From: Massilia frigida
GTDB lineage: Bacteria; Pseudomonadota; Gammaproteobacteria; Burkholderiales; Burkholderiaceae_D
DNA: 64,000 nt
Reading direction: 5' to 3'
Assembly: GCF_011682175.1 (NCBI RefSeq)
Contig: NZ_WHJG01000003.1
Location: 62,001 to 126,000 of the forward strand
Shown here: positions 1 through 53,663 of the stretch, piece by piece
Layout of the letters: the number at the start of each line of letters is the position of its first letter
Numbering within the stretch: the first letter of the stretch is position 1
The notes under the pieces: generated by a model
What the model saw: the letters and a program-made list of their open reading frames with translations, nothing else
What the model was told of the DNA's origin: nothing
Database searches by the model: none
Translations under genes and position numbers: made by a program

Positions 1-612
1 CTGGGTCAGGAAGGATATGTCGAAACTGGTGGAGGCGCCCGGCGCCACCGGCGCCGGCAGGTCGAAGCGCACCACCGTCTGGTCGGAGGCGGGGCCATTG
101 TCGGGATGGACGAACGACCAGTCGACCTTGGCCCCGCCCTGGGTCACGCTGCGCAGGTCGATCTGGCCCCATTCGCCGGGGGCGGTGGTGACGCTGCCGC
201 CGGCCTCGCGCTGTTCGGTGAAGTAGGTGCTGCCGGCGCTTTTGAAGGCGTTCATGTACAGGTGCAGGTAGACGCTGCGCACGGTCTCCTTGCTGCGGTT
301 GCGCCAGGTGAGTTTCTGCTTGCCGTCGACCGTGTGGGCGACCGGGTCGAGCGTGGCTTCGATGCGGTAGTCGACCACGCGCTCCGACAGGGTCGCTTCG
401 CTGCCGCTGCGCGGCCCGCCCCACGCATCCGCGGCGCTCGGCACGCTCACCGCGCTGGCCGACGGCAGGGCCAGGCCGATGCCGACGTCGGTCACCGGTT
501 GCGGGATCGGGGTGATGGTGATGTCGCCCTGGGCCAGCAGCTCGGCGCCGGCGATGGCGGCTGCCGCCAGCAGGAGCGCCTTGAGGGCCATGGTTAGGGT
601 ACGCGCTTGCAT
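1..612 (-). CDS. M1-family metallopeptidase, N-terminal part (runs off the left edge)
   Basis: The reading frame is open from an ATG at 612 down to base 1 (204 codons). A good ribosome site (AGGAGA) lies just upstream; the ATG at 616 is in another frame. The protein starts with a signal peptide (about 20 residues, ending near AAAIAGAEL). It then enters a beta-rich domain with VVDYRIEATLDPVAHTVDG and KLTWRNRSKETVRSVYLHLY, typical of the N-terminal saddle domain of gluzincin aminopeptidases. The zinc site (HExxH) would lie beyond the edge, so activity cannot be judged. It is transcribed away from the cobalamin uptake genes. The family call rests on the N-terminal domain only. Confidence 0.7.
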   Translation of the reverse strand, partial: MQARTLTMALKALLLAAAAIAGAELLAQGDITITPIPQPVTDVGIGLALPSASAVSVPSAADAWGGPRSGSEATLSERVVDYRIEATLDPVAHTVDGKQKLTWRNRSKETVRSVYLHLYMNAFKSAGSTYFTEQREAGGSVTTAPGEWGQIDLRSVTQGGAKVDWSFVHPDNGPASDQTVVRFDLPAPVAPGASTSFDISFLTQ

Positions 613-15807: not shown

Positions 15808-17169
15808 TTACTCCAGCTGGGTCTGGACGCTCGACACGCCCACCTCGGCGCTGCCCTCGGCCAGGCGTACCGTGAGCACCTCGTTCGGCTTGATCTGCAA
15901 GGGCGAGCGCACCACCTTGCCCTTGGCGTCGTGCACGATGGCGTAACCGCGTTCGAGCGTGCGCTGGGGATTGAGCAGTTCGAGTTGAGACGCCAGCGCG
16001 CCGAGCGCATCGCGCTTCTGTTGCATCTGGCTGGCCAGGCTGCTGCTGGTGCGGCGCTGCTGCGAGGCGATGTCGGCGCGCAGGGCGCGCACGTCCGGCC
16101 GGTGGCTGGCCCAGCGCGCGCGTAATTGTGCCAGCACATAGGCCTGGCGCTGCACCGGCGCGCGCAGCGCGTGCGTCATCGCGGTCGACAAGGCCACCAG
16201 CTCCAGGCGCTGGTGGCCGATGCGTGCCGATGGGCTCAGCAGCCGGCGCTGCCAGTTGTCCAGGCCCTGGTGCGCTTCGTTGAGGGTGTGGCGCATGGCG
16301 CGCCGCAGGTCGCCGGCATCGGCCGACAGCGAGGCGAGCCAGTCCGCGCGCGGGGTGGCGGCCAGTTCGGCGGCGGCGGTCGGAGTGGCCGCGCGCAGGT
16401 CGGCGGCAAAATCGGCGATGGTGAAGTCGGTCTCGTGGCCGACCCCGGAAATGACGGGCATGCCGCAGTTGGCGATCGCGTGGGCCACCACTTCTTCGTT
16501 AAAGCTCCACAAGTCTTCGATCGAACCGCCGCCACGGCATACCAGCAGCACGTCCACTTCCGCCCGGCGCGAGGCCGTTTGAATGGCGCCGGCAATCCGC
16601 TCGGCCGCGCCCTGGCCCTGCACCGGGGCAGGGTAGAGCACGATGCGCAGGTGCGGCGCGCGCCGCTTGAGCGCGGAGAGGATGTCGCGCAGCGCCGCCG
16701 CCTGCGGGCTGGTGACAATGCCGACGCTGCGCGTGAACATCGGCAGGGGACGCTTGCGCTCCTGGTCGAACAGGCCCTGCGCGCCCAGCTTGTCCTTGAG
16801 GCGCAGGAAGGCTTCGTACAGCGCCCCCACGCCGGCGCGGCGGATCGCCTCGACGTTGATCTGGTAATCGCCGCGCGCGCCGTACAGGGTCACCAGGGCG
16901 CGCACCTCGACCTTGTCGCCTTCGCGCGGAATGAAGCCGGCGTACTGGGCGCGGCCACGGAACATCACGGCGCGCACCTGGGCCGCGTCATCCTTGAGCG
17001 TGAAATACCAGTGGCCGGAACTGGCGCGTGTGAAGTTCGATATTTCACCGCTGATCCAGGTCAGCGGAAAGGAGCGCTCCAGCAGGCGCGCCACTTGCGC
17101 ATTGAGCGCGGTGACGGTCAGCACCGGCGGGGCGGCGAGGGGCGGGTCTTGGTCGAAATCGGTGTGCAT
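15808..17169 (-). CDS. xseA: Exodeoxyribonuclease VII large subunit
   Basis: The 453-residue catalytic subunit of the single-strand-specific nuclease ExoVII. The N-terminal OB-fold has [19 protein letters not shown]. The catalytic core has [32 protein letters not shown] and [21 protein letters not shown] long C-terminal coiled region follows, and [14 protein letters not shown] lies near the end. The ATG at 17169 is chosen; a GTG at 17196 would add nine residues. The small subunit xseB is not adjacent. The gene reads away from the repeat array. Confidence 0.95.
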
Positions 17170-17323
17170 GGGAAGAGTTCCGGAATAACTGTCCACAAAA
17201 TTTTAAAGCGGTCATGCTTATGTCACATATCGCGTAAAACAACAAGACTTTTTTCTAAGTCGATGATTTTAAACGAAAAAGCGAATGTGCTGGTTTTCAA
17301 CGCAATGCCTGAAATCCCTTCTA

Positions 17324-17389
17324 AATCAAGCACTTTGGCGGTCCGGGCGGGAGTTGCTCACAAAGTTATCCACAGAAATTGTGTAGAAG
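17324..17389 (+). repeat. DnaA-box element, unit 1
   Basis: AATCAAGCAC at 17324 and TTATCCACA at 17366-17374. Arms CACAA and TTGTG pair over five bases. TAGAAG replaces the usual CAGAA ending. Confidence 0.8.
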
Positions 17390-17452
17390 TTTTTCTGTAC
17401 GTACACGCGGGCACCTGCCTGCCGCGTGCGCACCGCCTAGCTATCTGTTTGT

Positions 17453-17518
17453 AATCAGGCACTTACGTGGTTCTGCAACGCCTTGCACACAATCTTGTCC
17501 ACAGAAGCTGTGCAGAAC
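17453..17518 (+). repeat. DnaA-box element, unit 2
   Basis: AATCAGGCAC at 17453 and TTGTCCACA at 17495-17503. Flanked by TTGCACACAATC and CTGTGCAGAAC. A further near-box, TTATCCACT, lies just outside the unit near 17527. Confidence 0.8.
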
Positions 17519-17592
17519 TGCCTGGCTTATCCACTGCCAAGCCGCCGCGCCGGCCCTGCCATTCTTTTAAGCACAATGGTTTTTCCCTTTGA

Positions 17593-17658
17593 AATCAGTG
17601 GCTTGATGCAGTGTCGGCTGGCTTGCTCACAATCTTGTCCACAAAAGGTGTGCAGAAC
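17593..17658 (+). repeat. DnaA-box element, unit 3
   Basis: AATCAGTGGC at 17593, preceded by TTTCCCTTT. TTGTCCACA at 17635-17643, followed by GTGTGCAGAAC. Confidence 0.8.
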
Positions 17659-17694
17659 GCGCCGACTTGTCCAGCGCCGTCCACAAGCCGGAAA

Positions 17695-17728
17695 ATGGGC
17701 GCCCATGATGGCATTTTGGGCGCCCAAA
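17695..17728. promoter_or_regulatory. Two GGGCGCCC palindromes spaced by two helical turns
   Basis: ATGGGCGCCCAT (17695-17706) and TTTGGGCGCCCAAA (17715-17728) are perfect palindromes whose centres are exactly 21 bp apart. They fill the unusually long spacer between units 3 and 4 of the repeat array. This arrangement suits cooperative binding of two dimers on one DNA face; the protein is unknown. Confidence 0.55.
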
Positions 17729-17782
17729 CAGCGGGTTATCCCTGTTTGCCGCATATTTGTGCACGACCGTATTAGTCAATGG

Positions 17783-17848
17783 AATCAAGGACTTCGAGGG
17801 ACTTGCGCGCCCTTGCGCACAATCTTATCCACAAAAGATGTGCAGAAG
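17783..17848 (+). repeat. DnaA-box element, unit 4
   Basis: AATCAAGGAC at 17783 and an exact TTATCCACA at 17825-17833. Arms GCACA and TGTGC. Confidence 0.8.
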
Positions 17849-17899
17849 ATTTGCGCGCCAGCCTGCCTTATTTTTACGCTGGGACCTTTTTCCCTTTTT

Positions 17900-17965
17900 A
17901 ATCAGGGACTTGACCATCCACCCCCGGTATTGCTAACAATCTTATCCACAGTTTTTGTTCAGAAC
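17900..17965 (+). repeat. DnaA-box element, unit 5
   Basis: AATCAGGGAC at 17900, preceded by TTTCCCTTTTT. TTATCCACA at 17942-17950. Both arms are altered in a compensating way (AACA with TGTT). Confidence 0.8.
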
Positions 17966-18027
17966 ACTGGCTGAATTTTTAATTTTCCACATGCCTTGTT
18001 TTTACGCATGGAAAACTTTCCCTTTAA

Positions 18028-18093
18028 AATCAAGCACATCCTGCCCATTGGGGCCGCTTGCACACAATCTTATCCACAGAAGGTGTGCAGAAG
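18028..18093 (+). repeat. DnaA-box element, unit 6
   Basis: AATCAAGCAC at 18028, preceded by TTTCCCTTT. TTATCCACA at 18070-18078, followed by GTGTGCAGAAG. It lies about 80 bp before the exbB start. Confidence 0.8.
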
Positions 18094-18175: not shown

Positions 18176-18781
18176 TTGCTGCCCATTCTTCAAGCTGCAG
18201 GTTTGCCTGTCATTCCATTGCTGATCGCCTCTCTGGTGGCCTTGGCCTTGATCGTCGAGCGCATTATTTATCTGCGCCGCGCCAAGATCCTCCCACCGCA
18301 GTTGCTTGACGAAGTGGTGCGCGTGTATCACAACGGCAAAATCACCAAGGACGTGGTCGAGTCGCTGGAAAAGAACTCGCCGCTCGGCGCCGTGCTCGCC
18401 GCTGCCCTGCGCAACGTCGACGCCCCGCGCGAAGTGATGAAGGAATCGATCGAAGAAGCAGGGCGCGGCGTGGCCCACGTGCTGGAACGCTTCCTGACCA
18501 CGCTCGGCACCATCGCTTCGCTGGCCCCTCTGATGGGTCTGTTCGGCACGGTGATCGGCATGATCGAGATTTTCGGCTCCACCAATTCCACGGGCGCCAA
18601 TCCGGCCCAGCTGGCTCATGGTATTTCGGTCGCGCTGTACAACACCGCCTTCGGTATCGCCATCGCCATGCCGGCCCTGATTGCCTATCGCCACTTCCGC
18701 GCCCTGGTCGACAGCTTCATCATCGACATGGAAATGCAGGCAGTTAAGTTCGTCGACATCGTGCACGGTGCCCGCAAATGA
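18176..18781 (+). CDS. exbB: MotA/TolQ/ExbB-family proton channel subunit
   Basis: A 201-residue inner-membrane protein of the TonB or Tol energising complex. It has three membrane segments: LPVIPLLIASLVALALIVER near the N-terminus, then FLTTLGTIASLAPLMGLFGT and LYNTAFGIAIAMPALIAYRH. The last two carry the conserved proline- and threonine-rich channel pattern. The start is TTG at 18176 with CAGGAG seven bases upstream. exbD follows with overlap. Without TolA/TolB/Pal nearby, ExbB is a better name than TolQ. It would help power receptors such as BtuB. Confidence 0.85.
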   Translation: MLPILQAAGLPVIPLLIASLVALALIVERIIYLRRAKILPPQLLDEVVRVYHNGKITKDVVESLEKNSPLGAVLAAALRNVDAPREVMKESIEEAGRGVAHVLERFLTTLGTIASLAPLMGLFGTVIGMIEIFGSTNSTGANPAQLAHGISVALYNTAFGIAIAMPALIAYRHFRALVDSFIIDMEMQAVKFVDIVHGARK

Positions 18782-19266: not shown

Positions 19267-20376
19267 ATGGCCTCCTCCTCCTCTTCCCTCGCAACGACGC
19301 TTCAGCGTGCCTGGCAGCGCCGTGGCGCGCTCGCTTGCGCGCTGTGGCCCCTGTCCTTGCTGTTCCGCTGCGTGAGCGGCCTGCGCGCGCTGCTGTTTCG
19401 CTTCGGTGTGCTGGGCTCGACCCGGCTGCCGGTCCCGGTCATCGTGGTCGGCAATATTTTTATCGGCGGCACCGGCAAGACCCCGCTGACGATCTGGCTG
19501 GCCGAGGCCTTGCGCGGCGCCGGCTTCACGCCCGGCATCATTTCGCGCGGCCACGGCGGCGGTGACAGCGCGCCGCATAGCGCGTCGCATAGCGCGCCGC
19601 ATAGCGCGCCGCATAGCGCGCCGCATAGCGCCCCGCATAGCGCCCCGCGCGCGGTCACGGCCGACTCCAGCGCGCGCGATGTCGGCGACGAGCCGCTCCT
19701 GATTGCGCGCCGCACCGGCTGTCCGGTGGTGGTGGGGCGCGACCGCGGCGCCGCCGGACGCGCCTTGCTGGCCGCCCATCCCGACGTCGACGTGATCCTC
19801 ACCGACGATGGCTTGCAGCACTACGCCCTGCGGCGCGATATCGAAATCATGCTGTTCGACGGACGCGGCGTGGGCAATGGCTGGCTGCTGCCGGCCGGGC
19901 CCTTGCGCGAAGCGCCGTCGCGCCGGCGCGACTTCACCATCGTCAACGCGCCCGAACTGACGCCGGCCTTGCGCCAGGCGGTCGGCGGCCAGCCATTCCG
20001 CATGCAACTGGCAGGCGAGTTCGCCGAGCCGTTGGCGCGCCCCGGCCAGCGCGTGCCGCTGGCCAGCCTGGCTGGCCGCCGCTTGGTGGCCGCCTGCGGC
20101 ATCGGCAATCCGCAGCGCTTCTTCACCCTGCTGCGCGGCGCCGGCCTGGAGGTCGCCGAACTGCCGCTGCCGGACCATCACGATTTCCTCGACCAGCCAT
20201 TTGCCGCCATCGAAGCGGACTGCATCCTGATCACCGAGAAGGATGCAGTAAAATGTGCGCAAATTGAAAATCTCAAAAACGACCCGAGACTGTGGGTCGT
20301 ACCGGTGACGGCGCAGCTTGATAGCGCGCTGGCCGAACACATTGTGGAGAAATGTCGTGGATGCTCGACTGCTTGA
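19267..20376 (+). CDS. lpxK: Tetraacyldisaccharide 4'-kinase (lipid A synthesis)
   Basis: A 369-residue enzyme that phosphorylates the lipid A precursor at the 4' position at the inner membrane. A membrane anchor region is followed by the P-loop in [47 protein letters not shown] and the C-terminal [10 protein letters not shown] are conserved. An unusual SAPH repeat (residues 101-127) sits in the loop after SRGHGG, where relatives have a short linker. The Trm112-like gene starts before its stop. Neighbours kdsB and exbBD fit an envelope role. Confidence 0.95.
19567..19647 (+). repeat. lpxK: 12-bp tandem repeat inside lpxK
   Basis: Six nearly identical 12-bp units (AGCGCGCCGCAT type) plus a partial unit encode SAPH, SASH and SAP repeats. 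The unit length is a multiple of three, so copy-number change keeps the frame. The near-perfect copies suggest recent expansion by slippage. Confidence 0.9.
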
Positions 20377-53102: not shown

Positions 53103-53663
53103 ATGAGTATGAATGCCGTGCCGAGCGGGCCGCCGGAACCTGACAACAAACGTGCGCCCGTTGCCGGTGGCGGGGGGCCGCCGTATGATGGCGGCATGGA
53201 CCGCCGCCTCACCGTGCTCGAAACGCGTTTTGACACTATCTTGCCGACCCTGGCTACCAAGGCGGACCTGGTCGACTTGCGCCTGGATATGGAGAAGATG
53301 CGCTCCGAGTTACTTGGAAAAACAGACGCCCTGGGTTCCGAATTGCGCGGGAAAATAGACGCCGTGGGTTCCGAATTACGCGGGGAAATGAGTGAATTGG
53401 GGTCGAGTCTTCGTGCAGAAATGGTGAAGCTGCGCAATGAGGTACATGGCACCTTGATGAAAGCGATGATGTGGTTCGGCGCGCTTGCGATTACCGTGAT
53501 CTTCAGCATCGCCGGTATGGGCATCTACTTGAGCAATCAGGTCACGGCTCAGATCACTAACCAGATCAGCAATCTTGCCACACGTCTGCAGGTCCCCAGC
53601 GCGCCGTCGGCAACTCCTCCGGACAGGCAAGTGCCTGGTGCTTTGCCGCCCGCCCGGCGCTGA
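53103..53663 (+). CDS. Coiled-coil membrane protein, tandem copy 2
   Basis: A 186-residue paralogue. The N-terminal 55 residues are almost identical to copy 1. The coiled coil is longer, with 11-residue repeats (LLGKTDALGSE, LRGKIDAVGSE, LRGEMSELGSS). The same membrane segment (MWFGALAITVIFSIAGMGIY) and tail (VTAQITNQISNLATRLQV) follow. The GGGGA ribosome site is followed by ATG 53103. Confidence 0.7.
   Translation: MSMNAVPSGPPEPDNKRAPVAGGGGPPYDGGMDRRLTVLETRFDTILPTLATKADLVDLRLDMEKMRSELLGKTDALGSELRGKIDAVGSELRGEMSELGSSLRAEMVKLRNEVHGTLMKAMMWFGALAITVIFSIAGMGIYLSNQVTAQITNQISNLATRLQVPSAPSATPPDRQVPGALPPARR

Follow-up and report, generated by a model that had tools for sequence, protein, structure and literature searches.

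The six tandem DnaA-box units that lie between xseA and exbB in Massilia frigida are probably a bank of compact DARS-type elements, amplified in tandem, which would regenerate ATP-DnaA. The sequence supports a DARS-type function, which would fit it better than titration of DnaA, promoter control or a replication origin. DARS elements have been characterised mainly in E. coli, as two scattered loci with different regulation. The new part here, as far as literature searches show, is the tandem and compact array; the open PMC literature yielded no paper that deals with arrays of DARS or with loci of this kind in Oxalobacteraceae.

In the window, which is the 64-kb stretch of M. frigida DNA that was analysed, six in-register units of 66 nt occupy 17324-18093 and fill the interval between the divergent xseA and exbB genes (Table 1). 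Each unit starts with its IHF-like site, and the spacings are 129, 140, 190, 117 and 128 nt. The preliminary description of this DNA had reported six fixed-length repeats, with AATCA starting 42 nt before TTRTCCACA, in a gene-free interval, and both statements held: the distance is 42 nt in all six units, and the interval looks free of genes, since three overlapping, mechanically called ORFs in it (442, 163 and 89 aa) matched no Pfam family. All six occurrences of TTRTCCACA in the window fall within a unit, compared with a mean of 0.43 and a maximum of 3 in 100 shuffles of the window. In the whole genome (7.79 Mb in 255 contigs), the exact motif given earlier had five matches and its reversed-pattern control none, and a looser motif matched all six units and nothing elsewhere.

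When the first A of AATCA is numbered 1, the IHF-like site covers positions 1-13 (pattern AATCAR-N4-TTR, scored against WATCARNNNNTTR), and three DnaA boxes follow: the DnaA-like box III at positions 31-39 (+), box II, TTRTCCACA, at 43-51 (+), and box I at 57-65 on the minus strand, which reads TTCTGCACA in four units. In every unit, boxes III and II are head-to-tail, 3 nt apart, and box I is inverted, 5 nt beyond box II. Box III, of the TTGCNCACA type, has two to three mismatches to TTWTNCACA, and box I has one mismatch in five units and two in the other, giving summed box mismatches of 3, 4, 4, 3, 5 and 3 for units 1-6. The proposed link to DnaA is thus well supported by the boxes present in all six units. 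The earlier two-block description of the unit missed a further element, a dyad TGC-N11-GCA with an AT-rich middle at unit positions -36 to -20. Within it, a frame of 15 bp loosely matches the Fis consensus GNNYANNNNNTRNNC, with one to three mismatches in five of the six units and an exact match in none, and unit 2 is without such a dyad (6 mismatches). We call the dyad Fis-like in this loose sense and do not call it Fis.

Table 1. Features of the array and its borders (window coordinates; box positions in the last column).
Feature	Position	Strand	Remarks
xseA, exodeoxyribonuclease VII large subunit, left border	15808..17196	-	TIGR00237, 475.7 bits, cut-off 180
Whole array, six DARS-like units including Fis-like dyads	17289..18093	+	between xseA and exbB
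Unit 1 weak Fis-like dyad	17289..17303		3 mismatches
Unit 1 IHF-like site AATCAAGCACTTT	17324..17336	+	1 mismatch to WATCARNNNNTTR
Unit 1 core	17354..17388	+	III 17354-17362 (+), II 17366-17374 (+), I 17380-17388 (-)
Unit 2 IHF-like site AATCAGGCACTTA	17453..17465	+	0 mismatches
Unit 2 core	17483..17517	+	III 17483-17491, II 17495-17503, I 17509-17517 (-)
Unit 3 Fis-like dyad	17558..17572		2 mismatches
Unit 3 IHF-like site AATCAGTGGCTTG	17593..17605	+	0 mismatches
Unit 3 core	17623..17657	+	III 17623-17631, II 17635-17643, I 17649-17657 (-)
Unit 4 Fis-like dyad	17748..17762		2 mismatches
Unit 4 IHF-like site AATCAAGGACTTC	17783..17795	+	1 mismatch
Unit 4 core	17813..17847	+	III 17813-17821, II 17825-17833, I 17839-17847 (-)
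Unit 5 Fis-like dyad	17865..17879		1 mismatch
Unit 5 IHF-like site AATCAGGGACTTG	17900..17912	+	0 mismatches
Unit 5 core, boxes III/I with AACA/TGTT	17930..17964	+	III 17930-17938, II 17942-17950, I 17956-17964 (-)
Unit 6 Fis-like dyad	17993..18007		1 mismatch
Unit 6 IHF-like site AATCAAGCACATC	18028..18040	+	2 mismatches
Unit 6 core	18058..18092	+	III 18058-18066, II 18070-18078, I 18084-18092 (-)
exbB/tolQ-family proton-channel gene, right border, TTG start	18176..18781	+	TolQ and ExbB families, below equivalog cut-offs

The E. coli DARS1, DARS2 and datA regions were obtained by accession and scanned for a box, 5 nt, an inverted box, 3 nt and a second inverted box. The scan found TTATCCACT-5-TGTGGATAA-3-TGTGTATTA in DARS1 (L152 2108-2142) and TTATTCACC-5-TGTGGATAG-3-TGTGAAGAA in DARS2 (core at L151 1636-1670), as well as a second, weaker DARS2 copy 0.3 kb from the main core; it matched all six units of the array and gave no match in the datA region. 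The geometry of DARS1 and DARS2, I(+)-5 nt-II(-)-3 nt-III(-), is that of the array core read on the opposite strand. Both DARSs are described as having equal box spacing with box I opposite to II and III (PMC5742627), and head-to-head boxes I/II as characteristic of DARS and essential to it (PMC10380432); the three boxes, the opposite box I and the 5/3-nt spacing are present in each of the six units. The DARS1 and DARS2 sequences found here agree with the double boxes listed in a ChIP table (PMC11317965). Another placement of the DARS2 core, at L151 1952-1986 with AATCAGAGAATTG as the IHF site, was rejected, as the scan and that ChIP table point to 1636-1670.

The head-to-tail pair with a 3-nt gap is not diagnostic by itself, because DnaA favours such pairs at most of its E. 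coli sites (PMC11317965). Among nine of the 13 distinct double-box sites given in that source (rne, rpoH, dnaA and mioC were left out), DARS1 and the DARS2 core are the only ones with an inverted box I at 5 nt that has no more than one mismatch; the other seven sites have three to six mismatches there. This comparison bears on the possibility that the array is a datA-type locus, an IHF-dependent sink that would titrate DnaA and/or speed hydrolysis of DnaA-bound ATP. Like the array, datA combines intergenic DnaA boxes with IHF and has a head-to-tail pair with a 3-nt gap, and an array as dense as this one, with up to 18 DnaA boxes and IHF-like sites in 0.8 kb, should titrate some DnaA. However, datA has four mismatches at the position of the inverted box, which is kept in all six array units, and it has its IHF match on the opposite flank of the pair. 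The layout of datA, with IHF between two groups of DnaA boxes and a double box without inverted box I, is not found in the array, where the distance from the boxes of one unit to the next IHF-like site varies. We consider a datA-type locus unlikely. The suggestion of titration or reactivation is thus supported for reactivation, which fits the anatomy, whereas datA-type titration fits less well.

With regard to chance occurrence, 1.6 Mb of DNA from relatives contained five three-box matches at six or fewer summed mismatches, two at five or fewer and one at four or fewer, the last being letter-for-letter the core found between hemE and priA (see below). The oriC candidate contains one three-box match with a sum of 5. 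Unit 5 alone would not stand out, because its sum of 5 is reached twice in this background and once in the oriC candidate.

The preliminary description had assigned the AATCA block to an unknown second protein. This protein is probably IHF, judging from the match to the consensus (WATCAANNNNTTR in PMC4585315, its reverse in PMC8682772) and from the genome, in which both IHF alpha and IHF beta pass the NCBIfam cut-offs in a profile search. The genome also encodes an HU-like protein, which stays below the cut-offs for HU, and a fourth protein with an HU/IHF domain. A Fis-family protein scores 118.3 bits with NF002517 (cut-off 122) when its 85-residue frame is read from one of the ATG codons, which gives 77 residues. 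The E. coli Fis query found a match in seven of eight genomes of the family that were searched; G022 gave none and is also without the IHF-box unit. DnaA of this genome shares 252 of 467 residues with E. coli DnaA, and of 19 selected positions 17 are identical, including R285, L290 and D269. Hda is presumably represented by a protein of 227 aa that weakly matches the DnaA domain.

In E. coli DARS2, the core is followed by IHF sites and then Fis sites, and both IHF and Fis are required (PMC4245941). We placed IBS1 and IBS2 of DARS2 at L151 1729-1741 and 1745-1757, with one mismatch each, because they are reported to be 3 bp apart (PMC4245941), and a Fis match at L151 1781-1795. In the array, the IHF-like site is on the box III side in all six units, and five of them have the weak Fis-like dyad beyond it, which would give the order core-IHF-Fis. 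DARS2, which lies upstream of mutH, resembles the array in core orientation, in 5/3-nt spacing and probably in having IHF and then Fis beyond box III, but it has one main core at ~58 bp from the IHF sites (IBS1 as placed here), whereas the array has six compact units with 17 bp. The IHF-Fis distance is 20 bp in the array versus ~23 bp in DARS2, again with the sites as placed here. Moreover, the array differs from DARS2 in its closer IHF matches, its weaker Fis-like dyad and its xseA-exbB location. The core-IHF spacing is reported to matter in DARS2 (PMC4245941), and the E. coli distances among core, IHF and Fis are not those of the array units, so we file the unit as a DARS-type variant and not as DARS2. 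E. coli DARS1, in the bioD-uvrB interval, shares the core geometry, but it is a single core, for which the literature consulted describes no IHF site. A DARS in this family is to be expected, because DARS-like sequences are reported in many proteobacteria (PMC10380432), beta-proteobacteria and V. cholerae (PMC6090056) among them; the DARS2 spacing is said to be kept in beta- or gamma-proteobacteria near E. coli (PMC5742627), whereas PMC4245941 refers to gamma-proteobacteria. In these accounts, as far as consulted, such sequences are single sites at conserved places, and not tandem arrays.

In relatives, the dyad was assessed in 292 units among the matches listed. Its G and C ends are conserved to 95%, and the mean mismatch is 1.47, compared with an average of 4.0 over all offsets. 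Slightly better Fis scores are reached at two other offsets, but these overlap fixed DnaA-box columns. The Fis consensus is matched exactly in 38 of these units and with at most one mismatch in 161.

Taken together, these parts suggest how the array may work. IHF would bend the DNA beside each core, with help from Fis perhaps at some units. ADP-DnaA would bind head-to-head on inverted box I and box II, with a third molecule on box III, and the head-to-head contact would release ADP, so that the freed DnaA could reload with ATP and be able to initiate again at oriC. With six copies at a distance from the origin, the rate of reactivation would be multiplied and would depend on how many copies of this chromosome region the cell has. 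Box order, orientation and spacing, the IHF-like sites, their conservation and their location in relatives can be read from the sequence; from these we infer that DnaA, IHF and Fis bind at the array, that nucleotides are exchanged there and that dosage has an effect.

The IHF-box unit, a pattern that does not require boxes III and I, is present in 28 of 60 genomes searched, M. frigida included. All 16 other genomes of the genus have it in three to six copies, and 11 of 19 other genomes of the family in one to seven copies; no match was found in the remaining 8 of the family or in 24 genomes from other families, and the controls gave 0. Close relatives thus keep the boxes and the spacing, an outcome mostly in favour of the earlier reading, which their absence would have refuted. 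The strict three-box core matched in 10 of 16 genomes searched; its pattern with box I found nothing in G020 and G031, though both carry the IHF-III-II part. In a 300-genome sample of the order, the compact IHF-core unit occurs in five genomes, all among the 10 of this family, and in none of the 290 outside it, a pattern that undercounts because a one-base shift was disallowed. Cases outside the family do exist among the named loci, for example one unit between xseA and exbB in a Brachymonas MAG (L244). The 37-nt gap is kept in 112 of 113 distinct units at the first loci (36-39 nt allowed), a constancy that is partly by construction because the loci were picked by one such unit. A search for the core only found at least 405 distinct cores in at least 106 of 118 named stretches, each of which had been picked for at least one full unit. 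Among the matches listed, 292 of the 405 cores have WATCA at the offset expected and 43 have it one base off (+1), and the remaining 19 offsets from -10 to +10 have 18 in all.

Both xseA and exbB are contained in 77 of the 118 named stretches, and 76 of these show a strict core; without exception, the cores of these 76 lie between the two genes, on the strand of exbB. The other stretches, which include single matches in other taxa, have either one of the genes (22) or none (19). The number of strict cores per relative ranges from one (Collimonas, Herminiimonas, Noviherbaspirillum) to nine (a Janthinobacterium MAG, L251). The locus of Massilia mucilaginosa (L277) has six cores at the corresponding place, with XseA and ExbB 92% and 99% identical.

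The framing CACA/TGTG arms of the boxes had been said to change together. This is real in unit 5, but over 409 distinct cores at the named loci the change to AACA/TGTT is on both sides in 15, on one side only in 47 and 21, and on neither in 326 (Fisher p 5e-5, a statistic that ignores kinship of loci). An obligatory compensating pair is thus rejected, and the association is only loose, because one side changes without the other in many cores. The paired change was found in two of nine loci compared, at the matching unit in each.

Strict cores are not confined to the array. The genome has ten of them, the highest number in a sample of 369 genomes across the class, in which no other genome has more than three: six in the array, three in a second array on contig C180 and one between hemE and priA; a search with mismatches adds two at C222. 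The C180 array (G000:C180:50905-51199; L053 2906-3200) has a 130-bp period and box III TTGTTAACA, with AACA and TGTT changes in all three cores; one unit, inspected by eye, has an IHF-like site at the 42-nt offset that deviates by one mismatch. The hemE-priA core (C211; L055 3206-3240) has the geometry of the array, but it is single, and 84 bp separate its box III from the IHF-like site, which is on that side of the core. The hemE-priA intervals of G009 (L345), G029 (L354) and G266 (L184), the last a genome from another order of the class, likewise hold a strict core; that of G030 (L351) has DnaA boxes but no strict core.

These other cores are relevant to the idea that the array is a regulatory region, controlled by DnaA, IHF and Fis, for the divergent xseA and exbB and not for replication. 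The array fills their divergent interval, the synteny is strict in the 76 named stretches, and DnaA in E. coli regulates genes of nucleotide synthesis, replication and repair (PMC11317965). On the other hand, six like-oriented modules over 0.8 kb would exceed the need of a promoter, the core geometry recurs at hemE-priA, C180 and C222, and the interval contains two promoter-like matches compared with a shuffle mean of 1.0 (sd 0.8). Such a regulatory role seems to us quite improbable.

An origin, or a backup origin, is a very improbable reading. DnaA boxes with IHF are present as in oriC, but at 52% A+T, with all 200-bp stretches at or below 61% and without any TAGTAG-type run, the interval offers no AT-rich unwinding element. 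The preliminary description noted that dnaA is not nearby and that the array does not look like oriC. The first point is correct, as dnaA is on another contig, followed by dnaN- and gyrB-like genes (by eye); the second is likely right, as a better candidate exists elsewhere. This candidate is a DnaA-box cluster (L054 2600-3310; G000:C186) with divergent box pairs, 67% A+T tracts and TAGTAG runs, adjoining nucleosidase-like and nitronate monooxygenase-like genes (by eye). In G012 and G009 it is ~0.4 Mb from dnaA. In G017, the GC skew changes sign at 5.25-5.55 Mb, a range that includes the DnaA-box cluster of this genome (5.418 Mb), and neither at the array nor at dnaA (record start); the nucleosidase and nitronate monooxygenase neighbours were not found at this cluster, and the call rests on boxes and on skew from 20 samples in the only genome with clear skew. 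The skew of G011 has no clean pattern, and that of G012 is ambiguous between about 1.2 and 2.8 Mb.

A conserved relative distance from oriC is a trait of DARS2. The distance from the oriC candidate to the array is 25.5-28.1% of the genome in five of six long assemblies: 25.5% in G012, 26.3% in G011, 26.4% in G017, 28.1% in G005 (an assembly rated 48% complete) and 25.7% of the main contig in G033; G030, in three contigs, was left out. The position is not fixed among close relatives, because the distance is 7.0% in G009, the units of which are very like those of the window.

A selfish or passively spreading repeat with incidental box-like sequence, to which the varying copy number, the tandem duplication in G029 and the similar three-unit array at C180 might be attributed, is scarcely credible, since the IHF-box unit is at one locus and on one strand in 28 of 28 positive genomes, where dispersal at many sites had been considered and was not seen, and since only the binding-site columns are conserved across units, with free linkers. 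In G029 (G029:C28:699400-700781), units with near-identical boxes are spaced by 245-246 bp, which indicates recent tandem duplication of the element. A phage origin was also rejected; the 19 phage records obtained with an artificial query of 37 nt match weakly and mostly over short lengths.

Returning to the DARS-type reading, we propose tentatively, and with rather less than even confidence, that copy number may be what sets the speed of DnaA reactivation in Oxalobacteraceae. A DARS-type unit at xseA-exbB, single in the ancestor, would have been compacted, with IHF next to the core, and multiplied in tandem to up to nine cores. If true, this would be a dosage-dependent replication clock away from the origin, tunable by gain or loss of units. 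A tandem bank of such sites may tune the timing of DNA copying, and the array raises the question whether the number of sites sets the rate of ATP-DnaA regeneration. As a simple module, it would allow the core, the IHF bend and the number of copies to be varied separately. The core geometry is widespread, with a strict core in 96 of the 369 genomes sampled across the class and none for the reversed-pattern control.

Two other repeats were observed in the window. A 12-bp repeat, AGCGCGCCGCAT, is present in 6.8 copies at 19567-19648, inside an lpxK-like gene (by eye), where it encodes repeated Ser-Ala-Pro-His. A 33-bp tandem repeat at 53304-53389 has 2.6 copies with 83% matches.
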